A stretch of DNA of 64,000 nt from assembly GCA_030533445.1 (NCBI GenBank), contig CM060065.1:8078474-8142473 (forward strand). Direction: 5' to 3'. Made by a program: the position numbers and the translations under genes. Position 1 is the first letter of the stretch, and the number at the start of each line of letters is the position of its first letter. This stretch comes from Cyprinodon diabolis (taxonomy: Eukaryota > Chordata > Actinopteri > Cyprinodontiformes > Cyprinodontidae). This document shows positions 1 to 61,843 of the stretch, piece by piece. The notes under the pieces are model-generated. The model was not told the origin of the DNA. It did not search any database and saw only the letters and a program-made list of their open reading frames with translations.

Positions 1-96
1 GCCTACATCAGCTGTTTGCGAGATTCCTATTGACTTTTTGTCTGCTTTTCCTTTTTAAATATGTTTTCCAAAACAATTGATAAAATATTTCCTCAC

Positions 97-645
97 CTGA
101 GGGACGGAGAGCAAAGCACTCATTGCCCATGCTATCATCAGCATGATCCTGTTCCTCTTCGGAGCCATGCTTGTCAACAGAGGGTTGAGGATCGCCGACT
201 GTCTGTCCAGGCTTATCACCACCGTGACAAAAGCACACGAGTACATGGCCTGCAGCTTGAGGAACATCAGAAACCTACACGCCAGGTCTCCAGCAAGCCA
301 CTGGACAGTGATGTTCCACACAGCATCCACCGGCATCACAATAAATGTCACCAAGAGATCCGCTGCTGTCAAGTTGACGATCAGAACGCGTACGTGTGAT
401 TTGCGTCTCTGGCCGCTGGCTGCCCAGAGAACAGCCAGATTGCAGAGAGTAGATATGCCACACAGGGTGAAGGTAATGATCACTCTGACTTTCGCTGCTG
501 TGGAAAAAGTAGGCAGCTGTGGGGTCCTGTCCACTGCTGTCCAGTTGCAGTGAGAAGCCAGCAGGTCACTGCTGGAATTGAGGTCAGATCCTGAACTTTG
601 CTGATGCATTACGCCCGGAGGAGGAAAGCAGGAAGAGACGTTCAT
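97..645 (-). CDS. gnrhr: Gonadotropin-releasing hormone receptor, first coding exon (partial gene)
   Basis: This exon encodes the first 183 residues of a class A GPCR of the GnRH receptor family, a Gq-coupled plasma-membrane receptor of pituitary and brain. Seen: start ATG at 645, three N-glycosylation sequons in the extracellular N-terminus (NVS, NSS, NWT), TM1 at about residues 54-76, TM2 with NLTAADLLV followed by MPVDAVWNIT, and TM3 ending in LDRQSAILNPL. DRQ in place of the usual DRY is typical of GnRH receptors. TM4 ends at LLSVPQ, where the frame meets a good donor (CAG|GTGAGG, intron from 96) in phase 0; GnRH receptors are usually split here. The remaining exons lie beyond the left edge. 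Continued reading past the donor gives a stop after 13 unrelated residues. Teleosts keep several paralogues; I cannot assign the subtype. Confidence 0.93.
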
Positions 646-2119
646 TTTGCGACTCTCAGCATGGAGTCAGCATTTCGTTTGGAAACAAAGAGGCTTGTTT
701 TGCCGAAGGGAGAGAAAGCAAACATATACACACATCATATTCATGAAGTTAAAGCCAACAATTTATCTGCATTGATTTGCATTTCAAGACTAGAAATTAG
801 ATAAGCTGTGTGAGAAACAGAGGCTGCCAGGGATGGAGCAGTCTGCTGAGGAGGACCCACCTTTGATGCTCGGCGATGTGGAAAAACACTTGGTGCTAAC
901 AAATCGCATTAGGAGGAGATCTGAAGTATTGAACTTTCAGCACCTCCCTTAGCAACACCTACAAACTTATCAGGATAAGTGGGCAGCACAGCACTTTTAG
1001 CAAGAAATTTGTCTCGACAGCTTTAACAAAAGGTTGCTGCTTATATTTTTTATCACAAAAACTGGGAACAGCTACAAATGTACTGGCCCCTCAGCTCCAA
1101 TCCCTACCAGTCCCTGCCCTCACCTCAAAAAAGATTAAAGGCTCAGTATAAATAATGAGGAATCATTCTTGTCTTTTGTTTGTTAGGTTTATTGGAGTAT
1201 GCTTCTCTTTAAATATTGTTTAGCCAAACAATGTCCAGTTGATTTTTCTATAAACAACTGAAAAAATAACCTTAGAGCATTCTAAGTGAGAGCAAACCTT
1301 TAATATTCAGATATATCTCGCCTTGAATGGGGAAAAAAACACAATGTTTCATTGCTTTTTGTATTTGTTTGTTTTTCATTGTTTTTTAGTAGAATCTAAA
1401 TAAAATAACAGTTAAACGTACATTGGCTTCCAATTTCCACTAGGCTTGACTACATATTTAAAAATAGTGGTACTTTTTTCATGCTGGTATATGGCTCACT
1501 GCAACAATCTATCAGGAGGGACATCCACTGAGAAGGGACACTTGGTTTATATTATTGGTGTGCTGAAAATGGACTTAATGTAACCTACAACTAGCAGGTA
1601 TTAAACACTAAAAATATTAGCATCAAGGCTACATAAGGCTGAGCTGATTCAGAGTTCTTAATTTAGCCTAAATAAATAGATTTATCAGGTTTTTAAAGGA
1701 AGTTGGAATGGCTTTTAACATCCCTTAATCAAAATTTTGATCAAATCTGAGCTAAACATGGATTCATTTTAAAAGATTATATTTTTAATAAGTACAGAAT
1801 TATGTCTAATAAAATCAATAAATTCTCACCACATAGATAAATCCCTATAATTATTAGGCTTAATCAACTTTAAGCTGCACAAACCACTATCATTTGTAAC
1901 ACAGTTTTATGGATTTAGATTTGTGTCAAGTTATTCTAATTTACTTCTCGTTCTGAAACCAACGATTAATAAGCAAAACATTGACAGGAAAAAAATATGA
2001 TCCTAAATGTACACATGAAATAATGAGAAATACTAATGTCACCAAACTCACATGGGTCCTGAGGAGCTGGGAATGTTTCCAAACTGTAGATAGAAAATAA
2101 AAATGTAAATGAAATCCAC
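646..2119. other. AT-rich upstream region of gnrhr, no gene seen
   Basis: No coding or RNA gene is visible. The first few hundred bases are presumably 5' UTR and promoter of the GnRH receptor gene on the minus strand, but I see no convincing TATA element or further exon. Confidence 0.5.
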
Positions 2120-11999: not shown

Positions 12000-12575
12000 G
12001 ATATTTACACTGCATCAGATAATGTTCCCCCCATTTTAAGCAGGGGAAACGCTATCTGACTGGGTTCAGAAGCCCATCAGATACCGTTCTCCCCATGTTA
12101 AGCAGGGGGAACGCTATCTGGCGGGGTTTAGAAGCCCATCAGATACCGTTCCCCCCATGTTAAGCAGGGAGAACCCTATCTGACGGGGTTAAGAAGCCCA
12201 TCAGATACCGTTCTCCCCATGTTAAGCAGGGGGAACGCTATCTGACGGGGTTTAGAAGCCCATCAGATACCGTTCTCCCCATGTTAAGCAGGGGGAACGC
12301 TATCTGGCAGGGTTTAGAAGCCCATCAGATACCGTTCCCCCCATGTTAAGCAGGGAGAACCCTATCTGACGGGGTTAATAAGCCCATCAGATACCGTTCT
12401 CCCCATGTTAAGCAGGGGGAACGCTATCTGGCGGGGTTTAGAAGCCCATCAGATACCGTTCCCCCCATGTTAAGCAGGGAGAACCCTATCTGAAGGGGTT
12501 AATAAGCCCATCAGATACCGTTCTCCCCATGTTAAGCAGGGGGAACGCTATCTGACGGGGTTTATAGGCCCGTCA
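12000..12575. repeat. 62-bp tandem array of hairpin-forming units
   Basis: About nine copies of a 62-bp unit repeat with exact 62-bp spacing (for example AGCCCATCAG at 12071, 12133, 12195 and 12257). Each unit is itself an imperfect inverted repeat: CAGATACCGTTCTCCCC, an 11-nt loop, then GGGGGAACGCTATCTG. Units vary between CTCCCC/CCCCCC and GACGGGG/GGCGGGG. The array abuts the 3' end of an L2-like LINE. Confidence 0.95.
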
Positions 12576-12584
12576 GATAGATGG

Positions 12585-13805
12585 GGGGTCGCTATGTCCT
12601 CCAGAAGTCTAAACCTATAGCAGCATAACTATAGAGACAGTTCAGGATAACCTAGCCACTCTAACTACAAGCTTTATCAAAAAGGAAACTTTTAAGCCTA
12701 GCCTTAAAAGTAGACAGGGTGTCTGCCTCACGGACTAAAACTGGTAGTTGGTTCCACAGGAGAGGAACCTGATAACTAAAAGATCTGCCTCCCATTCTAT
12801 TTTTAGAAATTCTAGGAACCACTAGTAAACCTGCAGATTGAGAGCGAAGTGCTCTGTTAGGAACATAAGGAACAATCAGATCTCTGATATAAGATGGAGC
12901 TTGGCCATTTAAGGCTTTATATGTGAGAATGAGGATTTTAAATTCTATTCTGGATTTAACAGGAAGCCAATGAAGAGAAGCCAGGATAGGAGACATATGA
13001 TCTCTATTTTTAATTTTCATCAGAACTCTGGCTGCAGCATTTTGGATCAGCTGAAGGCTTTTAACTACAGTTTGTAGACTTCCTGATAGTAAAGAATTAC
13101 AATAGTCCAGCCTTGAAGTAACAAATGCATGGACTAGTTTCTCAGCATCAATCCTGGACAGAATATTTCTAATATTTGCAATGTTCCACAGATGAAAGAA
13201 GGAAATTCTAGAAACCTCTTTTATCTGGGATTTAAATGACAGGTCCTCATCAAAAACAACACCAAGATTTTTTACTTTATTATCTGAAATCAGTTTAATC
13301 CCATCCAAATGAAGTGACTGGCTAATCAGCTTCTTTTTCAAAGACTCTGGTCCAAAGATTATAACTTCTGTTTTGTCTACATTCAGAAGCAGAAAGTTAA
13401 GAGTCATCCAGGTTTTTATGTCTTCAAGAGATGCCTGTAATTTATGTAATGGGTTAGCTTCATCTGGATTTATAGACAGATATAGCTGGGTATCATCAGC
13501 ATAACAGTGAAAATTAATCCCATGCTGTCTAATAACTCTACCGATTGGGAGCATGTATAAAGTAAAGAGAATTGGTCCTAGCACCGATCCCTGTGGTACT
13601 CCAGGGGTAACCTTTGAGCATGAGGAAGATCTGTCATTAACATGAACAAACTGAAATCGATAGATAAGATTTAAACCAGTCTAGAGCTGTTCCTTTAATT
13701 CCTACAAAATATTCAAGTCTTTCTAAAAGAATATTATGGTCAACTGTATCAAATGCAGCACTGAGATCCAACAGGACGAGCACAGATACAAGTCCACTAT
13801 CAGAG
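12585..13805 (-). pseudogene. L2-like LINE reverse transcriptase, 5'-truncated
   Basis: A long open frame (13584 down to 12661, 307 residues) covers the reverse transcriptase palm and thumb and the C-terminal region of a fish non-LTR retrotransposon. Motifs: [10 protein letters not shown] just upstream of the first Met, YADDTQLY catalytic box, [35 protein letters not shown] and VPLLWNQLP. Upstream, to about 13805, a further in-frame motif ([15 protein letters not shown]) can be read after a frame disruption near 13680. The endonuclease half is absent. The 3' part is shared with 40745-41020. The element is a dead 5'-truncated insertion. Confidence 0.85.
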
Positions 13806-19774: not shown

Positions 19775-21960
19775 GGCGCTCCAAGGCAGCGACCAAGAAC
19801 AATTCTCGACAATTTCACGAAATATGCCGCTTAAAGCGATACAAACTAGACATCAAACCCGCATCTATGATCAATAACGCCTGCTGGAGTGACAGTCACA
19901 AAATGTTTTAAAGATATTTTTGTCTGTTTAAAAAGCTCCAGAGTGCTACGGATGGATGTACACAAAACAACAGCGGAACATAACAGTTGGAGGAAGAGAT
20001 GCGCGAGACGGAGAAAGCGAGGCTGCAGAGGTGAGCTAACTGCGAAGCTAAGGGGAAATCCCCACAGACCGCCGCTTCCATCAATCCTCCTCTCCAACGT
20101 CCGCTCGCTGGAAAACAAAATGGATAATCTCTGACTGGAACATCTTCAAGGCTGCAGCAACATATGACAACTTATTAAATATTGATGAGTATGCCATGAC
20201 TGTGTCAGCCTACATCAACAAATGCATTGAGGACGTCAGCATCAAAATGAAACATCACCACCCGGGCCAACCAATGACCCTGGATGAATGGGAACTTTCC
20301 CAAATTGCTAAAAGCACAGAACATAGCTTTCAAGTCTGGTGATAAAGAGGCACTGAGAACAGCATGTGCAAACTTATACCGTGCCATCAGATCAGCGAAG
20401 TAAAACCACAGCCAGAAGATCCAGGACCTTTTCTATGATACCAGCAAGCAACACCAGGGGGATGTTAAATGGCATTTGGATGACCGCGGACTACAACTTC
20501 TTTGGAAGGTTTGAGGCACTAAACAGCACTCCAGCAGTGAAAGCCGTTCCACACCAGGGGGAGGAGACACTGAAGTGAAAACCCTAACCCTAACTCTGAG
20601 GAGAGTCAACCAAAGGAAGGCCCCAGGACCTGATAACATACCTGGGCGGGTGTATAAGGAGTGTGCAGATCAGCTGGCTGATGTCCTCACAGACATCTTT
20701 AACTACTCGCTGGACGGATCCGTGGTGCCAGCATGCAAAACCGCTCCACTGAGGAAACCATCTCTGCTGCTCTCCACCTGATCCTGGCACACCTGGAGGA
20801 GAAGAACTCCCACATGCGGATGCTGTTCCTGGACTTCAGTTCAGCTTTCAACACCATCATCCCACAGCATCTGATGGGGAAACTGAAACAGCTGGGCTGC
20901 AATACACCCCTCTGCTATTGGCTGCTAGACTTCCTCACTAACAGACCTCAGTCAGTTGGACAGAACACCTCTGATGTCATCACTCTAAGCACAGGCTCCC
21001 CTCAGGGCTGCATCCTGAGCCCTCTGCTGTTCACCCTGATGACACATGACTGCGTCCCCAGGTTCACCACCAATCACATCGTGAAGTTTGCAGACGACAC
21101 CACAGTGGTGGACCTCATCAGAGACGACAATGACCTGGACTACAGAGAGGAGGTGGAGCAGCTGGTGGACTGGTGCATAGATAACAGCCTGATCCTGAAC
21201 AATGAGAAGACGAAGAAGATAATCTTGGACTTCAGGAAGAACCATCCTAACCACGCTCCACTGCTCATCAACAGCTCAGCTGTAGAGGTGGTCAGCAGCA
21301 CCAAATTCCTGGGGGTGCACATCACAAACACCACCTCACTGGTCAAAAGGGCACAGAAGCGCATGTACTTCTTGCAGAGGATGAGGAGAGCCCACCTGCC
21401 CCCACCCATCCTCACCACCTTCTCCAGAAGCACCATAGAGAGCGTTCTGACCAGCTGTCTCACTGTGTGGTGTGGAGGCTGCAGCGCCTCAGACTGGAAG
21501 AAGGTGAGAAGAGTGGAAAGAACAGAAGAGAGGATCATTGGATCTCCTCTTCCCTGCATTAAAGACACTTAATTCCTCCGCTGCGTGTCCCGAGCCCGTA
21601 ACATCATCAATGACCCCTCACCCCCCCACCATGGACTGTTCTCCCTTCTGCCCGCTGGGGGGAGGCTTCACAGCATCAGATGCAGGTCCAGCAAATTCGA
21701 GAACAGTTTTTTCCCCACTGCCATTAGACTGCTGAATGTTATGTAAAATGGGTTATTAAAAATAATAACTGAAATGTGGAAACTGTAACTATACAGTCAT
21801 ATATTTACACTTTTTTCACCTAAAAGGTTTTTTATCACTGCTGCTTACCTGCACTTTAAAAAATGAAATAGTCTAGAGACAAAATTTCTTTGTGTTTAAC
21901 CTTTTGTTTACAAAATGACAAAACAAAATCTGTCCCTGTCTAATGTCTAATCTGGAGGCA
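19775..21960 (+). pseudogene. Rex-like LINE retrotransposon, internally deleted
   Basis: The 5' part (19889-20134) has an arginine-rich leader and the start of an endonuclease domain (PSILLSNVRSLENKMDNL). Most of the endonuclease is missing. A linker region follows (SAYINKCIEDVSIKMK), then [25 protein letters not shown] sequence near 20610-20690, then a reverse transcriptase frame (20733-21572) with [30 protein letters not shown], the catalytic box KFADDTTVV and LGVHI. The frame ends before the usual C-terminus, whose coding remnant and 3' UTR continue to about 21960. Internal deletion and frameshifts make it non-functional. Its 3' end is shared with 13812-14245. Confidence 0.85.
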
Positions 21961-28275: not shown

Positions 28276-29412
28276 CTAGGGTTGCCAACCGTCCCTTGTA
28301 AAAAAGAGGCATTCGGTATTTAGAAATAGAAATACCCGTCTCGTATTTAGTGGGAAAAATAATCAGTAAAAAGCTCATGGAAAATGAAGAACGAGTGCAC
28401 GTTACATACAAAACTTATGGTAAACTTAAACCCAGGCCCTGTCCTGCGTTGAGCTGACAACATATATGTAACGATCCACAATACCCTCATCCCATTGGTT
28501 GAGCCAAGCGATGCTCAGGTTTACTCTGCAGCACTCAAAAACAAACAACTCCTCACTGCTGCAAGAGCTCAGAGGAAATACAAGTGGAAAAAGTAGGCTA
28601 TCGCCACATAATGTGGCATTAAAGCTACAGTGTGTAATAATTACATGGATATACAGTCAGAAATGTAATATATTATACATAACTATGTTATTTATCATCA
28701 TCTACGAGCTCAGCCTCCTAACCTTAATATTTGCGTTGCCTTAGAATTCGTTATTTATAATTACATAGGAGCGGGTCTCGCAGCCATGGAGGCAGACATC
28801 TTTGCGCCACGGCAGCGCAGAGCCAACAAACTAGCGATTGCGAGATCGCCAAAACGTCACAACGATGTAGAAAAAATAACGGGTATATTTATTATCTTAA
28901 GTCTACATGAAATCTATACCCTACACAGACTAATGAAATACTATCTGTAAAATTATCTATGTAAACAAACCTCATCACTTGAGAAGGTAGGTGATGCGGA
29001 CGTCGTGGAAGACATTTTGTCCCGTAACGCTCGCCGTACTGTTTGGGGGGGAGAAGCGGTGGGGGGGAGATGTTCATGTTGCTGCACTATTTATTTACTG
29101 TTTTCTATTCATTTTTAAAGTTTAAAGTAAAGCAAAACAGGCTTATGTTTAAGATACTTATTTTATTCAGCAAAGTTTGTTATTTTGTATTAAAATGAAT
29201 TTTGGGATAATTTGTTTTCCATGTGTTCATGTCACTGAGAAATATGCATCTAACTCAATGCAATTTTGAGTCAAATAGTAAAAAAAAAAAATCATTTCAC
29301 ACACAAGGGGGGGGCATAAGAAAAAAATCACCACGCCAGGAGGGGTAAAGGCAAATGGGTCAGCTGGCACGCACATGAGGTGTCCCTTTTTTCAGGGAGT
29401 TGGCAACCCTAG
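28276..29412. mobile_element. DNA element bounded by CTAGGGTTGCCAAC inverted repeats
   Basis: Both ends carry the 14-bp inverted repeat CTAGGGTTGCCAAC, followed inside by related 'ccgtccctt' and 'tccctgaaaaaaggga' sequence. No clear target duplication was found. It has been invaded by a TTAA-flanked element at 28623. Confidence 0.55.
28623..29085 (+). mobile_element. TTAA-flanked element, copy without the 9.8-kb insertion
   Basis: It begins after TTAA (28619-28622) with AGCTACAGTGTGTAATAA, identical in type to the terminus at 61839. The right end is truncated after 'gatgttcatgttgctgc'. Two uninterrupted junctions make it a pre-insertion reference: a single CAAACTAGC at about 28829-28837, where the 51.3-61.8 kb copy carries a 9.8-kb insertion, and a single CCCTACAC near 28919, where that copy carries a 214-bp hAT MITE. 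Confidence 0.88.
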
Positions 29413-39514: not shown

Positions 39515-40122
39515 AATCAATTCAGTTTATTTCTATAGCACCAATTCCCAACACCTTATCTCAATGACTTTACAGATCACCAGATCATACATTCAAATTG
39601 ACTCAAACTTTTCTATCTTAGGAAAACCAGTTGATTGCATCGACTCATTGACTCGAATGCAATCCCTCACACTAAACATGCTTGTAGCGAAAGTGGAGAG
39701 GAAAAACTCCCTTTTAACAGGAAGAAACCTCCAGCGGAACCAGGCTCAGTGTGAGTGGCCATCTGCCGATGGTTCATCTGAACTGGGGTTCAAGGAGACA
39801 GAAGCAGACAGAAAGAAGCAGCTGTAAAAGGCGGCTCCATCCAGGAAACACACAGCCAGGCAGACAAGCTCTGAGCCAACTCCCATGTCAGAGGATGAAA
39901 TAGAGCACATCCAGCCAATCACAGTCAGAGAAATAGGACTACACTGAAAAACAGGCCGATCTCAAACATCTATAAACAAAGGTGTTGATGGCAGCAGCAC
40001 AGCTGATATTTCTCTCCAGGATGGAGTCACAGCCAAACAGGAACAGACCAGATGAAGCTACTATGAGAGAAAGCAGAGAGAGCAGAACATTTGAGATTGA
40101 ACTAATAGATTCTGCAGAGTTG

Positions 40123-51222: not shown

Positions 51223-51500
51223 CTTTCAAAATAAGGGCTGATGTACACAATACAGAATTCAGCTTTACCCCGAAATAACCTTTAAAGCTAAGGTGTGTAA
51301 TTTTCAGCGACATCTAACGTCCAGACTGCAGACCGCGGCAACATGAACATCTCCCCCCCACCGCTTCTCCCCCCCAACAGTACGGCGAGCGTTAAGGGAC
51401 AAAATGTCTTCCACGACGTCCGCATCACCTACCTTCTCAAGTGATGAGGTTTGTTTACATAGATAATTTTACAGATAGTATTTCATTAGTCTGTGTAGGG

Positions 51501-51714
51501 TAGGGGTGCTCAAGTCCAATCCTCAAGAGCTACTATCCTGCAACTTTTTAATGCACCCCATTTTTAACACACCTGAATCAAATGAATGGCTCGTTACCAT
51601 GCCCCTGCTGGGCTAAATGAGGGGATTGAGCCTTTCTATTCAGGTGTGTTAGAGAAGAGATGCATCTAAAGTTACAGGATAGTAGCTCTTGGGGACTGGA
51701 CTTGAGCCCCCCTG
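51501..51714. mobile_element. 214-bp hAT MITE with perfect 8-bp duplication
   Basis: GTGTAGGG flanks it (51493-51500 and 51715-51722). Inverted termini pair TAGGGGTGCTCAAGTCCA with CAGGGGGGCTCAAGTCCA (right, reversed), and inner 'gagctactatcctg' with 'caggatagtagctc'. The unoccupied site is present near 28915-28925. Confidence 0.95.
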
Positions 51715-51811
51715 GTGTAGGGTATAGATTTCAGTACCGTCTCAGTTCATCTCTCTCAACTTGCCGTAGTTACTTTCGAGCGTAATGGGCGATCTCGCAA
51801 TCGCTAGTTTG

Positions 51812-52250
51812 ACCGCGGTGAAGTTAGTTTTACGTTGGATATTCGACAGACATTCAAACCGCTTCTTCCTCCGGTTAATTCTCTTCTCCCCCACGGGAAA
51901 ACCTCTCCTTTTCTCCGGGTACACTGCGATCGGAGGAAGCCGCTCCAACACTTCCAGTGCACCCTTATTAGAGACTTTGCAGTAAATTTCATGGAGAGTG
52001 AAAACGGCTACATTGTGTACCTACTTCCTGTTTTCAAAATAAAACTATAGGCTTAGATTTTGAAGCCCAGAAGCTGTCAAACTAGAATATTTATATTTGT
52101 TGTATTTACAAAAACATTATACATATTTAGAGATTTCATATTGAAACTAAATGCTGTATCTCTCACCAGTCTAGTACCATGATTTCTCATAAATTTTGTG
52201 TCAATCCATCACAGAAACTGGAACGTATTCAGCAAAACTGCCAATATCTA
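51812..52250 (+). repeat. Left terminal inverted repeat arm
   Basis: GC-richer outer half (tip palindrome ACCGCGGT, then 'ttacgttggatattcgacag') and AT-rich inner half. The inner part from about 52095 looks like a diverged satellite monomer: TTTTGTGTCAATCCATCAC corresponds to TTTTGAGTCAATTGATCAC of the array. Confidence 0.9.
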
Positions 52251-53575
52251 CACATAGATACCTGGAAGCAATTGAGCAAAAATGCTAATATTTCATTATA
52301 AAAATTAATTAAAAAAATATTAGAAATTTAAAATGTAAAAATAAAGGGAGTAACTTTTGTAGATGATGGAGTGCTATGATTCAATATTGATTTTGAGTCA
52401 ATTGATCACATTACCTGGAAGCTATTGAGCAAAAATGCTAATATTTCCACATAAAAATTAATAAAAAAAATATTAGAAATTTAAAATGCAAAAATAAAGG
52501 GCGTAACTTTTGTAGACGATGCAGTGCTATGATTAAATATTGATTTTGAGTCAATTGATCACATTACCTTGAAGCTATTGAGCAAAAATGCTAATATTTC
52601 CACATAAAAATGTATTAAAAAATATTAGAAATTTAAAATGCAAAAAAAAAGGGCGTAACTTTTGAAGATGACGGAGTGCTATGATCCAATATTGATTTTG
52701 AGTCAATTGATCACATTACCTGGAAGCTATTGAGCAAAAATGCTAATATTTCCATATAAAAATGAATTAAAAAATATTAAAAGTTTAAAATGTAAAACTA
52801 AAACGCGTAACTTTTGAAGACGATGGAGTAGTATGATCCAACACTGATTTTGAGTCAATTGATCACATTACCTGGAAGCTATTGAGCAAAAATGCTAATA
52901 TTTCATTATAAAAATTAATAAAAAAATATTAAAAACCTAAAATGTAAAAATAAAGGGAGTAACTTTTGTATACGATGGAGTGCTATGATTCAATATTGAT
53001 TTTGAGTCAATTGATCACATTACCTGGAAGCTATTGAGCAAAAATGCTAATATTTCCACATAAAAATTAATAAAAAAAATATTAGAAATTTAAAATGCAA
53101 AAATAAAGGGCGTAACTTTTGTAGACGATGCAGTGCTATGATTCAATATTGATTTTGAGTCAATTGATCACATTACCTTGAAGCTATTGAGCAAAAATGC
53201 TAATATTTCCACATAAAAATTAATAAAAAAAATATTAGAAATTTAAAATGCAAAAATAAAGGGCGTAACTTTTGTAGACGATGCAGTGCTATGATTCAAT
53301 ATTGATTTTGAGTCAATTGATCACATTACCTTGAAGCTATTGAGCAAAAATGCTAATATTTCCATATAAAAATGAATTAAAAAATATTAAAAGTTTGAAA
53401 TGTAAAACTAAAAGGCGTAAGTTTTGAAGACGATGGAGTAGTATGATCCAACACTGATTTTGAGTCAATTGATCACATTACCTGGAAGCTATTGAGCAAA
53501 AATGCTAATATTTCCATATAAAAATGAATTAAAAAGTATTAAAAACGTAAAATGTAAAAGTAAAAGGCATCTTGA
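52251..53575 (+). repeat. 152-bp satellite, left array (8 copies)
   Basis: GAGTCAATTGATCACATTAC recurs eight times at about 152-bp spacing between 52395 and 53470. Monomers fall into types (…GGGCGTAACTTTTGTAGACG… and …CGTAACTTTTGAAGACG…), and a four-monomer higher-order repeat of 610 bp is visible ('tttcattata' at 52291 and 52901). Confidence 0.95.
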
Positions 53576-54085
53576 TCACTATGAAACAAATTTTCATTTC
53601 TATTCTCTTTGTAAATAAAATATTTAGTATCAACTCAGCTTAAAAAAAAAATAAAAAAAATTAAAAAAAAACTCCACACATAATAACATCAAATTGCATC
53701 AGCTTAACTTCACAACCAGAACTCCAAAGCTGCTTCCATCTTGTTGGAATCAATGGGACATAACCCCATTTTATATCCGCCCAATCCGACTTCCTATTAC
53801 AAGTCCTCCTAATCGTGAGGTACTCCTTACGACTGAGAAAAAGTTTATTTTTGTTATGCACTTAACATCTAGGTCCCTTGTTTCCATGGGTTATCAAACC
53901 CATTTGCAAAAACCCGCCACAAATATGGATTTATGAAGGAAAAATAGTTATTCATAATCACCTTCTAAATATCCACCTGCAAGATGAGGATTAGCTTTTA
54001 CAATGATTGCATGCTGTATGCATTAAAGGTAGTAAGACCAATACAGAAGACACAGTTATGTCAACAGAGTTGGATAATGTAATAG
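53576..54085. other. Inner left flank of the 9.8-kb element
   Basis: Non-satellite sequence with A-rich tracts at 53641-53671. No coding motif; presumably part of the original element core. Confidence 0.5.
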
Positions 54086-57000
54086 CTTATGTCCATCCAT
54101 CCATCCATCCATCTTCTTCCGCTTATCCGGGGTCGGGTCGGGGGGTAGCACCTTCAGTAGGGAGGCCCAGACATCCCTCTCCCCAGCCACTTCGGCCAGC
54201 TCCTCCGGGAAAATCCCAAGGCGCTCCCAGGCCAGCCGTGAAACATAGCCCCTCCAGTGTGTCCTGGGTCTCCCCCTGGGCCTCCTCCCGGTGGGACATG
54301 GCTGGGACACTTCACCAGGAAAAGACGTCCAGGAGGCATCCTAATCAGATGCCAGAGCCACCTCAAGTGGCTCCTCTCGATGTGGAGGAGCAGCGGCTCT
54401 ACTCTGAGTCCTCTCCGGATGACCGAGCTCCTCACCCTATCTCTAACGGAGAGCCCAGACATAGTACGGAGAAAACTCATTTCAGCCACTTGTGTCCTGG
54501 ACCTCATTCTTTCGGTCATGACCCAAAGCTCATGACCATAGATGAGGGTAGGAATGTAGATCGACCGGTAAATCGAGAGCTTTGCTGTTGGCTCAGCTCT
54601 GTCTTCACCACCACAGACCAGTATAGCGCACGCTTCACAGCAGACGGCGCACCAATCTGCCTGTCGATCTCCCGCTCCATCTTCCCCTCATTTGTGAACA
54701 AGACCCCAAGATACTTAAACTCCTCCATTAAGGGCAGTACATCCTCCCCAACCCGGAGAAGGCACTCTACCCTTTTAAGGCTCAGGATCATGGTCTCGGA
54801 TTTAGAGGCACTGCTCCTCATCCGGGCCACTTCATACTCGGCTGTGAACCGCTCAAGAGAGCTGTAGATCACGCCCTGATGAAGCCAACAGAACCACACC
54901 ATCTGCAAATAACAGAGATGCAATCCTAAGGCCACCAAGACAGATCCCCTTAACACCTTGGCTTCGCCTAGAAATTCTGTCCATAAAAGTTATGAACAGA
55001 AGCGGTGACAAAGGACAACCTTGGCGGAGTCCAACCCTCACCAGAAACGAGTCCGACTTACTGCCAGCAATGCGGACCAGGCTCTGACACCGGTCATACA
55101 GACACCTAACAGCCCCTATCAAAGGGCATGTACTCCTTACTCCCGGAGTACCCCCTACTGGACCCCCCAAGGGACACGTTTGAATGCCTTCTCCAGATCC
55201 AGAAAACACATGTAGACTGGTTGGGCAAACTCCCATGCACCCTCCAGAATCCTGCTGAGGGTGTAGAGCTGATCCAGTGTTCCACGGCCAGGGCGAAAAC
55301 CACACTGCTCCTTCTGAATCCGAGATTTGACTATCCGACAGACCTTCCTTTCCAGAACCCCGGAATAGACCTTACCAGGCAGGCTTAAGAGTGTAATTCT
55401 TCTGTAGTTGGAACACATCCTCCGGTCCCCTTTTTTATATACAGGGACCACCACCCCAATCTGCCAGTCCAAAGGAACTGCCCCTGATGTCCACCAATGT
55501 TGCAGAGCCACGTTAACAAACACAGCCCCACAACATCCAGAGCCCCAAGGTACTCAGGGCGAATTTCATCATCCACTGAAGCCTTGCCATCGAAGAGTGG
55601 CTTCCTTGAGTGACTTCGGCTACAGAGATGGGAGGACCCAAGCTGGAGCCCCCAGGCTCTGATTCTTCAATGGAAGACGTGTTGGTGGGATTAAGGAGGT
55701 CTTTGAAGTACTCCGCCCACCGACATATGACGTCCCGAGTCGAGGTCAGCAGCACACCACCCCCACTGTAAATAGTGTTGGTACTGCACTGCTTCCCCCT
55801 CCTGTTATGCCGAATTGTGGACCAGAATCTCTTCGAAGCTGTATGGAAGTCTTTCTCTCTCCATGGTCTCTCCAAACTCTCCCCACTCCTGAGTTTTTGC
55901 CTCAGCAACCAGCTGACCCACCTGCCGCTTTGACTGCCGGTACATATCAGCTGCTTCTGGAGTCCCACAGGTCAATAAAGCCCGAAAGGACTCCTTCTTC
56001 AGCTTGACAGCTTCCCTCACTTCTGGTGTCCACCAGCGTGTTCAAGGATTGCCACCGCGACATGGACTGACAACCTTGCAGCCACAGCTCTGACTAGCCA
56101 CCTCAACAATAGAGGCACGGAACATGGTCCACTCAGACTCAATGTCCACCACCTCCCTCGGAACGTGTTCAAAGCTCTGCCGGTGATGGGAGTTAAAGCT
56201 CCTTCTCACGGGGGACTCTGCCAGACATTCCCAGCAAACCCTCACAATATGTTTGGGCCTACCAGGTCTGACCAACGTCCTCCCCCACCATTTGAGCCAA
56301 CTCACTGCCAGGTAGTGGTCGGTAGAGAGCTCCGCCCCTCTCTTCACCCGACTGTCCAACACATGCGGCCGCAGGTCAGATGAAACAACATCAAAGTCGA
56401 TCATTGAAGTACGACCTAGGGTGTCCTCGTCCTAAGAGCAAGTATGGACACCCTTATACTTGAACATGGTGTTCATTAAGGACAGTCCATGTTGAGCACA
56501 GAAGTCCAACAACAGAACACCGCTCAAGTTCAGGTCAGGTGGGCCATTCCTTCCAACCACGCCTCGCCAGTACTCACTGTCATTGCCCACGTGAGCGTTG
56601 AAGTCCCCCAGAAGAACAATGGGGGTCCCCAGGAGGGGCACTCTCCAGTACCCCCTCTAAAGACTCCAAAAAGGGTGGGTAATCTGAACTGCTGTTTGGC
56701 GCATAAGCACAAACAACAGTCAGAACCCGTCCCCCCACACGAATGCGGAGGGAGGCAACCCTCTCGTTCACTGGGTTGAACCCCAATGTACAGGCACCAA
56801 GATCAGGGGCAACAAGAATGCCCACTCCTGCTCGGCGCCTCTCACCAGGGGCAACCCCAGAGTGGAAGAATGTCCACCCCCTCTCAAGGAGACTGGTTCC
56901 AGAGCCAGAGCCATGCGTCTAGGTAAGTCCAACTATCTGTAGTTGGAACCTTTCAACGTCGTGCACTAACTCAGACTCCTTCCCCACCAGAGAGGTGACA

Positions 57001-57455
57001 TTCCATGTCCCAAGAGACAGCTTCTTCAGCCGAGGGTCAGAACGCCAGGGTCCCCGGCCTTGACTGCCACCCACCACACACTGCACCCGACCCCTTTGGC
57101 CCATCCTACAGGTGGTGAGCCCATTGGAAGGGGGACCCATGTTTCCTCTTCGGGCTGTGCCCGGCCGGGCTCCATGGGTAAAAGCCCGGCCACCAGGCCC
57201 TCGCCAGCGTGCCCCACCTCCAGGCCTGGCTACAGAGTGGGGCCCCGGTGACCCGCGTCCAGGCGTAGGAACACTAGGTCCATTTATGTTACTCATCATA
57301 AGGGGTCTTTGGGCTGCTCTTTGTCTGGTCCCTCACCTAGGACCTGTCTGCCTTGGGTGACCATACTATGGGGCATAAAGCCCCCAGACAGCATAGCTCC
57401 TAAGATCATTAGGACACTTAAACCCCTCCACCATGATAAGGTGACAGCACAGGGA
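54086..57455 (-). pseudogene. Near full-length degenerate LINE (endonuclease plus reverse transcriptase)
   Basis: On the minus strand, fragments in order give a GC-rich leader (57299-), the endonuclease start (LKKLSLGTWNVTSLVGKE), its catalytic regions ([27 protein letters not shown]), a linker (AVKLKKESFRALLTCGTPEA), the reverse transcriptase (GVVVPVYKKGDRRMCSNYR; EEQCGFRPGRGTLDQLYTL-like; FLDLEKAFKRVPWG; VGLRQGCPLSPLLFITFMD; SLLFADGVVLLAS; EFKYLGVLFT) and a C-terminal region (RPRGRPRTHWRGYVSRLAW). At least eight frame breaks occur, and the second catalytic aspartate of the FADD box is glycine (FADG), so it is dead. The 3' end is a (ATGG)n tail at 54086-54110. A short repeat TAATGTA on both sides (54074-54080 and 57463-57469) may be the target duplication. 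Confidence 0.85.
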
Positions 57456-57949
57456 AGGGCTAATGTATTATATAAAATTTAAAAATGTTATATTGTTGAG
57501 AAAATTGTTGAACCTCTTAACTTTTGAAACAGTATTAAGTTTGTTACTCATGTGTGGGACAGTTTTGGGCTTTACATTGATTGGGTATACAGAATCAGGT
57601 AATAATGGTTTCCAGCTGCAGAGCTGGAATGATAACAAACTGCCTCAAAAAAAGTAATGGTAATTCTGCTTCATTATATCTCTATTCTCCCATTCTTTTG
57701 TATTTCTTATTTTAATCTCTAATGTTATGGTCATGATGCTTTTTCTCATCATAGTAGCTTAATCTTGTCTGTTCCTTTTTGGCTGTGACACCTTGGAGAG
57801 AAATATCAGCTGTGCTGCCCCCATGAACACCCTTGTTTATAGACGTCAGTTGACAGTTGCCTTTTGTATCTCTGCTTCTTTCTGTATGTAATATAAAGTA
57901 AACCTGTTTTCCTAAGACAACAAAAAATCCACTTTAATGAGACATTTAT
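57456..57949. other. Inner right flank of the 9.8-kb element
   Basis: Unique, mostly AT-rich sequence; the frame 57463-57657 has no recognisable motif. Probably the other half of the element core split by the LINE. Confidence 0.45.
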
Positions 57950-60900
57950 ATAAAAATATTACCTTATTTGCTCAATAGCTTCCAAGTATAGTGATCAATT
58001 GACTCAAAATCAGTGTTGGATCATAGTACTCCATCCTCTTCAAAAGTTACGCCTTTTATTTTCACATTTTAAACTTTTAATATTTTTTTATTCATTTTTA
58101 TATGGAAGTATTAGCATTTTTGCTCAATAGCTTCCAGGTAATGTGATCAATTGACTCAAAATCAGTGTTGGATCATAATACTCCATTGTCTTCAAAAGTT
58201 ACGCCTTTTAGTTTTACATTTTAAACTTTTAATATTTTTTTTATTGATTTTTATATGGAAATATTACCATTTTTGCTCAATAGCTTCCAGGTAATGTGAT
58301 CAATTGACTCAAAATCAGTGTTGGATCATATTACTCCATCGTCTTCAAAAGTTACGCCTTTCATTTTTACATTTTAAATTTTTAATATTTTTTAATTCAT
58401 TTTTATATGGAAATATTACCATTTTTGCTCAATAGCTTCTAGGTAATGTGATCAATTGACTCAAAATCAGTGTTGTATCATAGTACTCCATCGTCTTCAA
58501 AAGTTACGCCTTTTATTTTTACATTTTAGATTTTTAATATTTTTTTAATTCATTTGATATGGAAATATTAGCATTTCTGCTCAATAGCTTCCAGGTAATG
58601 TGATCAATTGACTCAAAATCAGTGTTGGATCATATTACTCCATCGTCTTCAAAAGTTACGCCTTTTATATTTACATTTTAAACTTTTCATATTTTTTTAA
58701 TTCATTTGATATGGAAATATTAGCATTTCTGCTCAATAGCTTCCAGGTAATGTGATCAATTGACTCAAAATCAGTGTTGGATCATATTACTCCATCGTCT
58801 TCAAAAGTTACGCCTTTTATATTTACATTTTAAACTTTTCATATTTTTTTAATTCATTTTTATATGGAAATATTAGAATTTTTGCTCAATAGCTTCCAGG
58901 TAATGTGATCAATTGACTCAAAATCAGTGTTGGATCATAATACTCCATTGTCTTCAAAAGTTACGCCTTTTAGTTTTACATTTTAAACTTTTAATTATTT
59001 TTTTATTGATTTTTATATGGAAATATTAGCATTTTTGCTCAATAGCTTCCAGGTAATGTGATCAATTGACTCAAAATCAGTGTTGGATCATAGTACTCCA
59101 TCGTCTTCAAAAGTTACGCCTTTCATTTTTACATTTTAAAATTTTAATATTTTTAAATTCATTTTTATATGGAAATATTAGCATTTTTGCTCAATAGCTT
59201 CCAGGTAATGTGATCAATTGACTCAAAATCAGTGTTGGATCATAGTACTCCATCGTCTTCAAAAGTTACGCATTTTATTTTTACATTTTAGATTTTTAAT
59301 ATTTTTTAATTCATTTTTATATGGAAATATTACCATTTTTGCTCAATAGCTTCCAGGTAATGTGATCAATTGACTCAAAATCAATGTTGGATCATAGTAC
59401 TCCATCGTCCTCAAAAGTTACGCCTTTTATATTTACATTTTAAACTTTTAATATTTTTTTTTATTGATTTTTATATGGAAATATTACCATTTTTGCTCAA
59501 TAGCTTCTAGGTAATGTGATCAATTGACTCAAAATCAGTGTTGGATCATAGTACTCCATCGTCTTCAAAAGTTACGCCTTTCATTTTTACATTTTAAAAT
59601 TTTAATATTTTTAAATTCATTTTTATATGGAAATATTAGCATTTTTGCTCAATAGCTTCCAGGTAATGTGATCAATTGACTCAAAATCAGTGTTGGATCA
59701 TAGTACTCCATCGTCTTCAAAAGTTATGCATTTTATTTTTACATTTTAGATTTTTAATATTTTTTAATTCATTTTTATATGGAAATATTAGCATTTTTGC
59801 TCAATAGCTTCCAGGTAATGTGATCAATTGACTCAAAATCAATGTTGGATCATAGTACTCCATCGTCCTCAAAAGTTACGCCTTTTATATTTACATTTTA
59901 AACTTTTAATATTTTTTTTTATTGATTTTTATATGGAAATATTACCATTTTTGCTCAATAGCTTCCAGGTAATGTGATCAATTGACTCAAAATCAGTGTT
60001 GGATCATAGTACTCCATCGTCTTCAAAAGTTACGCCTTTCATTTTTACATTTTAAATTTTTTGTATTTTTTAATTCATTTTTATATGGAAATATTACCAT
60101 TTTTGCTCAATAGCTTCTAGGTAATGTGATCAATTGACTCAAAATCAGTGTTGTATCATAGTACTCCATCATCTTCAAAAGTTACGCCTTTTAATTTTAC
60201 ATTTTAAACTTTTTATATTTTTTAATTCATTTTTATATGGAAATATTAGCATTTTTTCTCAATAGCTTCTAGGTAATGTGATCAATTGACTCAAAATCAG
60301 TGTTGGATCATATTACTCCATCGTCTTCAAAAGTTACGCCTTTCATTTTTACATTTTAAAATTTTTAATATTTTTAAATTCATTTTTATATGGAAATATT
60401 AGCATTTTTGCTCAATAGCTTCCAGGTAAAGTGATCAATTGACTCAAAATCAGTGTTGGATGATAGTACTCCATCGTCTTCAAAAGTTACGCCTTTTATA
60501 TTTACATTTTAAATTTTTAATATTTTTTAATTCATTTTTATATGGAAATATTAGCATTTTTGCTCAATAGCTTCCAGGTAATGTGATCAATTGACTCAAA
60601 ATCAGTGTTGGATCATAGTACTCCATCGTCTTCAAAAGTTACGCCTTTTATTTTTACATTTTAAATTTTTAATACTTTTTAATTCATTTTTATATGGAAA
60701 TATTACCATTTTTGCTCAATAGCTTCTAGGTAATGTGATCAATTGACTCAAAATCAGTGTTGTATCATAGTACTCCATCGTCTTCAAAAGTTACGCCTTT
60801 TATTTTTACATTTTAGATTTTTAATATTTTTTAAATTCATTTTATATGGAAATATTAGCATTTCTGCTCAATAGCTTCCAGGTAATGTGATCAATTGACT

Positions 60901-61189
60901 CAAAATCAGTGTTGGATCATACTACTCCTTCGTCTTCAAAAGTTACGCCTTTTATTTTTACATTTTAAATGTTTAACATTTTTTAATTCATTTTTATATG
61001 GAAATATTACCATTTTTGCTCAATAGCTTCCAGGTAATGTGATCAATTGACTCTAAATCAGTGCTGGATCATAGTACTCCATCATCTTCAAAAGTTACGC
61101 CTTTTATTTTTACATTTTAAATTTTTAATTAATTTTTATATAGAAATATTAGCATTTTTGCTCAATAGCTTCCAGGTATCTATGTGTAG
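57950..61189 (-). repeat. 152-bp satellite, right array (21 copies), inverted to the left array
   Basis: GTGATCAATTGACTCAAAAT recurs 21 times between 57991 and 61040 at a mean spacing of 152 bp. Local higher-order structure is visible, for example a near-identical adjacent pair with 'catttgatatggaaatatta' at about 58553 and 58705, and a three-monomer period of 458 bp ('tttcattttt' at 59121 and 59579). Confidence 0.96.
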
Positions 61190-61624
61190 ATATTGGCAGT
61201 TTTGCTGCATATGTTACAGTTCTTGTGATGGATTGACACAAAATATATAAGAAATCATGGTACTACACTGATTTAATGAGATACACTATTTAGTTTTAAT
61301 ATGAAATTTGTAAATATGTAAAAAAAATTTGTAAATATGACAAATATAAACCTTCTTGTTTGATAGCTTCTTGGCTTCAAAATCTAGGCCTAAAGTTTTA
61401 TTTTGAAAACAGGAAGCTCTTACACAATGCCGTTTTCAATCGCCGTGTTTTTACTGTAAAGTCTCTAATAAGGGTGCATTTGAAGTGTTGGAGCGGCTTG
61501 CTCCGATCGCAGTGTACCCGGAGCAAAGGAGAGGTTTTCCCGTGGGGAAGAAGAGAATTAACCACAGGAAGAAGTGGTTTGAATGTCTGTCGAATATCCA
61601 ACGTAAAACTAACTTCACCGCGGT
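61190..61624 (-). repeat. Right terminal inverted repeat arm
   Basis: Inverted counterpart of 51812-52250, with scattered substitutions and a small insertion near 61320-61340. Confidence 0.9.
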
Positions 61625-61843
61625 GCTAGTTTGTTGGCTCTGCGCTGCGGTAGCACAAAGATGTCTGCCTCCATGGCTGCGAGACCCGCTCCTATGTAAT
61701 TATAAATAACGAATTCTTAGGCAACGCAAATATTAAGGTTAAGAGGCTGAGCTCGTAGATGATGATAAATAACATAGTTATGTATAATATATTACATTTC
61801 TGACTGTGTATATCCCTGTAATTATTACACACTGTAGCTTTAA

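Follow-up and report, generated by a model that had tools for sequence, protein, structure and literature searches.

A 64,000-nt stretch of the Cyprinodon diabolis genome (C4:8078474-8142473, called the window here; positions given without a copy name are window positions) contains at 51803-61633 a structure with two long inverted arms of tandem repeats, which raises the question of what kind of mobile element it is and which enzyme could have moved it. An earlier note on this DNA had described the structure as the product of one transposition, satellites included, without a visible transposase, and had suggested a Mutator-like or Merlin-like foldback element. The window's own genome (1,219,523,432 bases in 936 contigs) was searched for relatives. 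The element belongs to a mobile family with 9-bp target duplications, some members of which carry a transposase gene, and it is very probably a non-autonomous cut-and-paste DNA transposon of the Rehavkus type, a foldback class related to Mutator-like elements (MULEs).

Target duplication and empty site

The element itself spans 51812-61624 (9,813 bp), or 9,831 bp when both duplications are included. On the + strand of the window, GCTAGTTTG occurs only at 51803-51811 and 61625-61633, which agrees with the perfect duplication claimed in the earlier note, and its complement occurs once, at 28827. Both ends also open alike in inverted orientation: ACCGCGGTGAAGTTAG starts the element at 51812 and is found inverted at its last base, 61624. 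The proposed pre-insertion state is present as well, because the second copy of the surrounding host repeat contains the 9 bp singly, at 28827-28835, and the joined flanks of the element form a single alignment with 28850-28619, in which 226/234 columns are identical and the 9 bp are present once. The left host flank contains a self-complementary insertion of ~211 bp (51503-51713) with GTGTAGGGTA at either side, similar to a hAT-type miniature inverted-repeat transposable element, and a further stretch of ~55 bp that differs by eye from the empty copy. A chance match of 9 bp is excluded by its recurrence throughout the genome, where 13 of 14 pairs of tips have a perfect duplication and one matches at 8/9 positions.

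The features of the locus are as follows.

28619..29085, - strand: second copy of the host repeat, unoccupied, with the site CAAACTAGC at 28827-28835 (alignment)
51335..51502, + strand: left part of the host repeat, 98.2% identical to 29085-28917
51803..51811, + strand: left 9-bp target site duplication GCTAGTTTG, one copy of which is at the empty paralogue
51812..52258, + strand: left unique end (flanking domain), type A, whose first 49 bp equal those of the right end
52259..53568, + strand: left satellite arm of 152-bp monomers, 8 full ones extracted (8.6 by Tandem Repeats Finder)
53569..54092, no strand: part of the middle that remains to the left of the long interspersed nuclear element (LINE), ~79% identical to transposase-bearing copies
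53702..53828, - strand: two 21-residue scraps in two frames from the Ulp1/SENP-like part of the transposase gene (tblastn)
54093..57460, - strand: nested LINE with endonuclease and reverse transcriptase pieces, frames broken, borders approximate
57461..57944, no strand: part of the middle that remains to the right of the LINE (alignment)
57945..61178, - strand: right satellite arm of 152-bp monomers, 21 full ones extracted
61179..61624, - strand: right unique end (flanking domain), type B, whose inner ~190 bp align to 1.25 monomers
61625..61633, + strand: right 9-bp target site duplication GCTAGTTTG (sequence comparison)
61634..61843, + strand: right part of the host repeat, 96.3% identical to the empty copy over 61625-61843

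Each half of the element thus consists, from the outside inwards, of a unique end, a 152-bp array, and half of a middle of ~1.0 kb that is interrupted by the LINE, and in both arms the monomers are oriented alike with respect to the tip. The left (447 bp) and right (446 bp) unique ends agree in 395 of 450 columns. A possible 7-bp duplication, TAATGTA, surrounds the LINE at 54075 and 57461. The earlier note was right that no transposase is visible; the middle nonetheless contains the LINE and the transposase-gene scraps, which correspond to residues 776-796 and 800-820 of a Betta homologue, P0122. Moreover, the middle shows 77-79% DNA identity over two pieces to C22b, a transposase-bearing copy elsewhere in the genome, and lacks ~0.9 kb near 57662 in comparison with another copy, C22a. 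The protease scraps and the similar middle together indicate that the window copy is what is left of such a gene and not foreign DNA with similar ends; judged by this comparison, it is a deletion derivative of a transposase-bearing element. A 73-aa frame from the middle gave no match in a homology search. Elsewhere in the window, 39966-40105 resembles 57707-57846 of the middle (143 columns at 82%, 17 kb apart) and is perhaps the remnant of an old relative.

Copies in the genome and their two lineages

The genome was searched with 148 bases from 51803, and 40 of 86 candidates were scored, so that the copy numbers are lower bounds. By position, 28 of the 40 scored tip matches form 14 inverted pairs and 12 are lone ends. 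Thirteen pairs, including the window copy, were read whole, and the fourteenth (C22, 10,869 bp), whose right tip has a base change, at its ends only. The copies are 3,761 to 18,817 bp long. The duplication is perfect in all pairs except C3a (8/9), and the 14 target sites, with 40% GC, are all different. The genome therefore bears out the view that the structure moved as a whole, satellites included, and the tip copies have the 9-bp duplications that the earlier note had proposed to look for. Among the lone ends, for which ~10 kb each was inspected, a partner was found for one (C18b), with a damaged tip and without a duplication; for the other 11, none was found within the stretch of ~10 kb. 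Two lone ends on contig C24 (C24b and C24c) have arrays of >9.3 kb that extend beyond the fetched stretch, perhaps a satellite in the making. Scans of viral contigs with the tip and two satellite patterns, and of a collection of genome contigs with one satellite pattern, gave no match.

Two types of end can be distinguished, A (left in the window) and B (right in the window), which are ~88% alike. Four copies have two A ends (C22b, C3a, C20a, and C18a) and a common 7.5-kb middle; identity to C22b is 99.7% for C3a and for C20a, which carries an insertion, and 98.0-98.6% for C18a. Seven A/B copies (window, C15a, C22a, C3b, C3c, C21b, and C1a) share the LINE-bearing middle, all with the A end towards the gene's 3' side and the B end opposite. 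C21a (A/B) and C14a (B/B) consist of almost nothing but arms. C20a and C15a carry additional insertions whose long frames (392 and 346 aa) resemble Tc1-type transposases by eye. C15a had been considered as a B/B copy, which was rejected because its disputed end, with an insertion within it, is 81% identical to A and 74% to B.

The LINE is at the same place in all seven copies, whose middles align to the window copy in pieces with 94.9-99.7% identity, and is not in the four A/A copies, where both sides are contiguous except for ~10 bp (seen in detail in C22b). It follows that the LINE entered once and was then copied by the transposon, with which it reached no fewer than seven sites, every one of them flanked by a separate duplication. 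Its reverse transcriptase piece has 275 related proteins, and the named ones among the at least 120 listed are from fishes (e.g., Scortum barcoo and Takifugu flavidus), which marks the window as teleost DNA. That the A and B ends are always arranged alike suggests a single hybrid founder, which may have arisen by recombination within the arrays or may be ancestral. In the LINE-bearing lineage, the A-arm monomers are closer to those of the A/A lineage (0.925) than the B-arm monomers are (0.889; 146 monomers, ≤8 per arm). Ageing after insertion was rejected as the cause of the 12% difference between the window ends, since the host repeat has 8 substitutions in 400 columns vs 48 in 443 for the ends; together with the two end types among the genome copies, this shows that the difference is older than the insertion.

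Transposase gene and homologues

The transposase-bearing copies in the genome answer to the autonomous relative that the earlier note had thought worth searching for. The gene is present in four of the 13 copies read whole, namely the A/A copies, one of which has 886 codons without a stop. Its homologues combine a DDE RNase-H core, an Ulp1/SENP-like protease domain, and a PHD finger; their alignment shows conserved D, D, E, and CxxH residues, and the best matches of the core model among solved structures are the ISCth4 transposase, which comes first, and P-element transposases. The PHD finger was found in P0122 (E 1.3e-5) and in 9/43 members at E 0.1, and matches to the PHD part are obtained by tblastn in all four transposase-bearing copies (e.g., C22b 2417-2313). 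No PHD finger was found in the 886-codon frame itself, so that it must be in a further exon, and the DDE, protease, and PHD parts would form one spliced protein here, as in the homologues. Homologues also exist in insects (Diaphorina citri, 22% identity).

A genome search with the transposase protein, in which 51 of 125 candidates were scored, gave 63 matches. Of these, 33 are on contig C24 at ~26.7-32.2 Mb, 28 of them with at least one stop; this region could be an older graveyard of relatives or a heterochromatic block.

Satellite arms and tips

The satellite arms have sequence in common with the unique ends. For the right unique end, the alignment of its inner ~190 bp to 1.25 monomers scores 61, against at most 29 in 300 shuffles; for the left unique end, a 64-bp block aligns to the monomer with a score of 58, against at most 32. 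In the window, 27/29 monomers are most similar to another monomer of the same arm, whereas the largest value in 5,000 label shuffles was 25. These two observations indicate that the arms derive from the terminal repeat and grow by local duplication. The 152-bp arrays are present in both arms of all 13 copies read whole, with 1 to 52 extracted monomers per arm; these counts are rough, chiefly for C21a and C14a, as arms were cut at or near the element midpoint. The 64-bp block is better conserved in the monomer than the rest (49/64 vs 40/88 invariant columns; Fisher 1.3e-4) and ranks sixth for conservation among 152 circular windows. It may be a candidate internal binding site.

The tips are more uniform than the sequence next to them. 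Measured on 26 ends of the 13 copies against the C22b end, itself included, positions 1-49 differ by 0.55% and positions 50-440 by 4.9%, and all 26 ends start with ACC. A tip common to both lineages is as expected if one transposase serves both.

Classification and rival explanations

The 9-bp duplication, the satellite arms in the termini, and the DDE/PHD homologues fit the published description of Rehavkus. Rehavkus is given a 9-bp duplication, terminal inverted repeats (TIRs) of 26-400 bp, a PHD finger, a minisatellite, and hosts in Arthropoda and Annelida by a review that knew the group only from insects and annelids (PMC6446971). Rehavkus-1_TC of Tribolium is 9.5 kb long and has a 164-bp satellite in its inverted termini, mostly as five and eight monomers (PMC10218199). 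The present family is alike in its duplication, in a satellite (152 bp) in the inverted termini, in the PHD finger, in the DDE core, and in a transposase that is probably MULE-related, and differs in its teleost host, in arms of 1 to 52 extracted monomers, in having two end types in one element, and in the LINE passenger. The Ulp1/SENP-like domain is not mentioned in the available parts of the Rehavkus descriptions.

Similar architectures have been described in other systems. Tetris of Drosophila virilis is also a non-autonomous foldback element with a unique flanking domain and 8-10 bp duplications, and its tandem repeats of ~220 bp have a 37-bp stretch in common with the flanking domain (PMC4079207); it differs in having no known transposase in the part of its description available, and is likened to the present family by description. 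Tm1 of root-knot nematodes is alike in that its duplications are mostly of 9 bp, that its TIRs are composite, FB-like, and contain tandem repeats, and that both non-autonomous and transposase-bearing members exist, but it has a repeat unit of ~14 bp, a Phantom-like transposase, and named copies of 1,080 and 2,593 bp (PMC3169594). Galileo, of the P superfamily, is alike in its foldback-like form, the tandem repeats in its TIRs, and its chimeric copies with two kinds of end, but makes 7-bp duplications with a P-type transposase; its chimeric copies are described without matching duplications, which the A/B copies here possess (PMC3573991).

Some other superfamily with 8-9 bp duplications, such as Merlin, hAT, or P/Galileo, could instead drive these foldback elements, which we consider improbable. 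P and hAT transposons make 8-bp duplications, and those here are 9 bp in 14/14 pairs (one with a mismatch), not 7 or 8. The tips begin with ACC, whereas Merlin termini begin with 5'-GG (PMC8101967), so that the Merlin-like part of the earlier suggestion is not supported; its Mutator-like part was right in kind, as it fits the MULE-related Rehavkus. Furthermore, IS1595-type, THAP, and hAT dimerisation domains are not among the 21 Pfam families matched by the 43 homologues, although this argument is weak because Pfam does not recognise the transposase core at all, and the combination of a PHD finger, 9 bp, and a minisatellite is the printed Rehavkus description. It is even less likely that the ends are moved by an unrelated transposase, with the gene for the 886-codon protein as a mere passenger in a few copies. 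This would be in line with the restriction of the gene to four of 13 copies and with a transposase role that is a predicted one. Against it, DDE residues are conserved among the homologues, which also show a transposase fold, and in the gene-less lineage the corresponding place still has remains of the gene-bearing middle, including the protease scraps, indicating that the ancestral element already had the gene. The locus might also be taken for an assembly artefact or a local inverted duplication in satellite DNA, since the assembly of inverted satellite arrays is difficult; no observation here favours this, and given perfect 9-bp duplications at 13/14 places and an empty paralogous site, this is hardly credible.

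Several observations weigh against the Rehavkus assignment or parts of it. The genome has no match to the MULE Pfam domain: PF10551 has 0 matches in the own genome, while the same search matched in 3/14 control genomes, and it is in none of the 43 homologues at E 0.1; the lone match (E 0.006) is to P0166, the weakest of 46 homologues, below the cut-off. Foldseek on the core model gave no match at E 0.001, and E551 lies outside the 90% columns of a wider alignment, which includes fragments. Five of ten homologues searched for domains lack the full set: P0163 has C48, but its PHD finger is weak (E 0.049), P0161 has C48 without PHD, P0154 has PHD on the N-terminal side and no C48, and P0152 and P0166 have neither. 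No significant motif shared by tip and monomer was found, which speaks against the arms as a plain copy of the tip's binding site. The unique ends of 447 bp plus arrays exceed the printed TIR range, which comes from few elements. Finally, the assignment is by description, and common descent with the Repbase Rehavkus proteins is putative.

The Rehavkus reading can be put together as follows. The transposase of the longer copies, with its DDE core, Ulp1/SENP-like domain, and PHD finger, would recognise the common 49-bp tips, cut the element out, and insert it elsewhere at a staggered cut of 9 bp. The satellite arms would have formed by tandem duplication of ~150 bp from the inner part of the terminal repeat, and would then lengthen and shorten copy by copy, and the repeats inside them may help binding. 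An ancestor of the window copy would have lost most of the transposase gene before the LINE entered the remainder, and this LINE-bearing ancestor, with one A end and one B end, would have spread in that form.

Other features of the window

A 203-aa frame at 55-666 (- strand) contains a 7tm_1 rhodopsin-type receptor domain (E 2.1e-20) and is presumably, by eye, similar to a GnRH receptor. RVT_1 frames are found at 12661-13680 (-) and 20703-21572 (+), the latter with a segment matching the Pfam model ALKBH8_N. A tandem array of a 62-bp unit (9.1 copies), with self-complementarity, occupies 12013-12579.

Implications

The class MULE-NOF comprises the relatives of FB-NOF and Rehavkus. In a table of four teleosts, 1,159 MULE-NOF copies appear in one column, by position that of zebrafish, and the available part of this record consists of counts, without structure, transposase, or duplications (PMC4746887); the term also appears in two further papers on fish genomes (PMC7486454 and PMC11184842). 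The MuDR records that Repbase lists for vertebrates have been doubted (PMC6446971). A vertebrate Rehavkus described with both duplications and transposase was not found in the open literature, the search being confined to it and thus excluding subscription papers and Repbase, which may have such entries. The principle itself is already known; what is new is that the host is a vertebrate and has young copies, that the ends are hybrid, and that a LINE travels as a passenger.

Taken as a whole, the data incline us, with more reserve than for the classification, to a recently mobile vertebrate Rehavkus lineage, in which one DDE, SUMO-protease-like, and PHD protein moves its own copies and gene-less hybrid A/B copies, a LINE has been carried to at least seven new sites, and the terminal repeats seed satellite arrays of >9 kb on one chromosome amid dead relatives. 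If true, this would counter the view of Rehavkus as confined to insects and annelids. A 2019 review asks whether MULEs are truly absent from vertebrates and what role very long, variable TIRs play (PMC6446971). Both questions could be tested in this one genome, which has young copies with an open transposase frame, gene-less copies that share their tips, and arms that vary from 1 to 52 extracted monomers among related elements. The family also provides an example of a retrotransposon multiplied by a DNA transposon and of satellite DNA born inside a terminal repeat.
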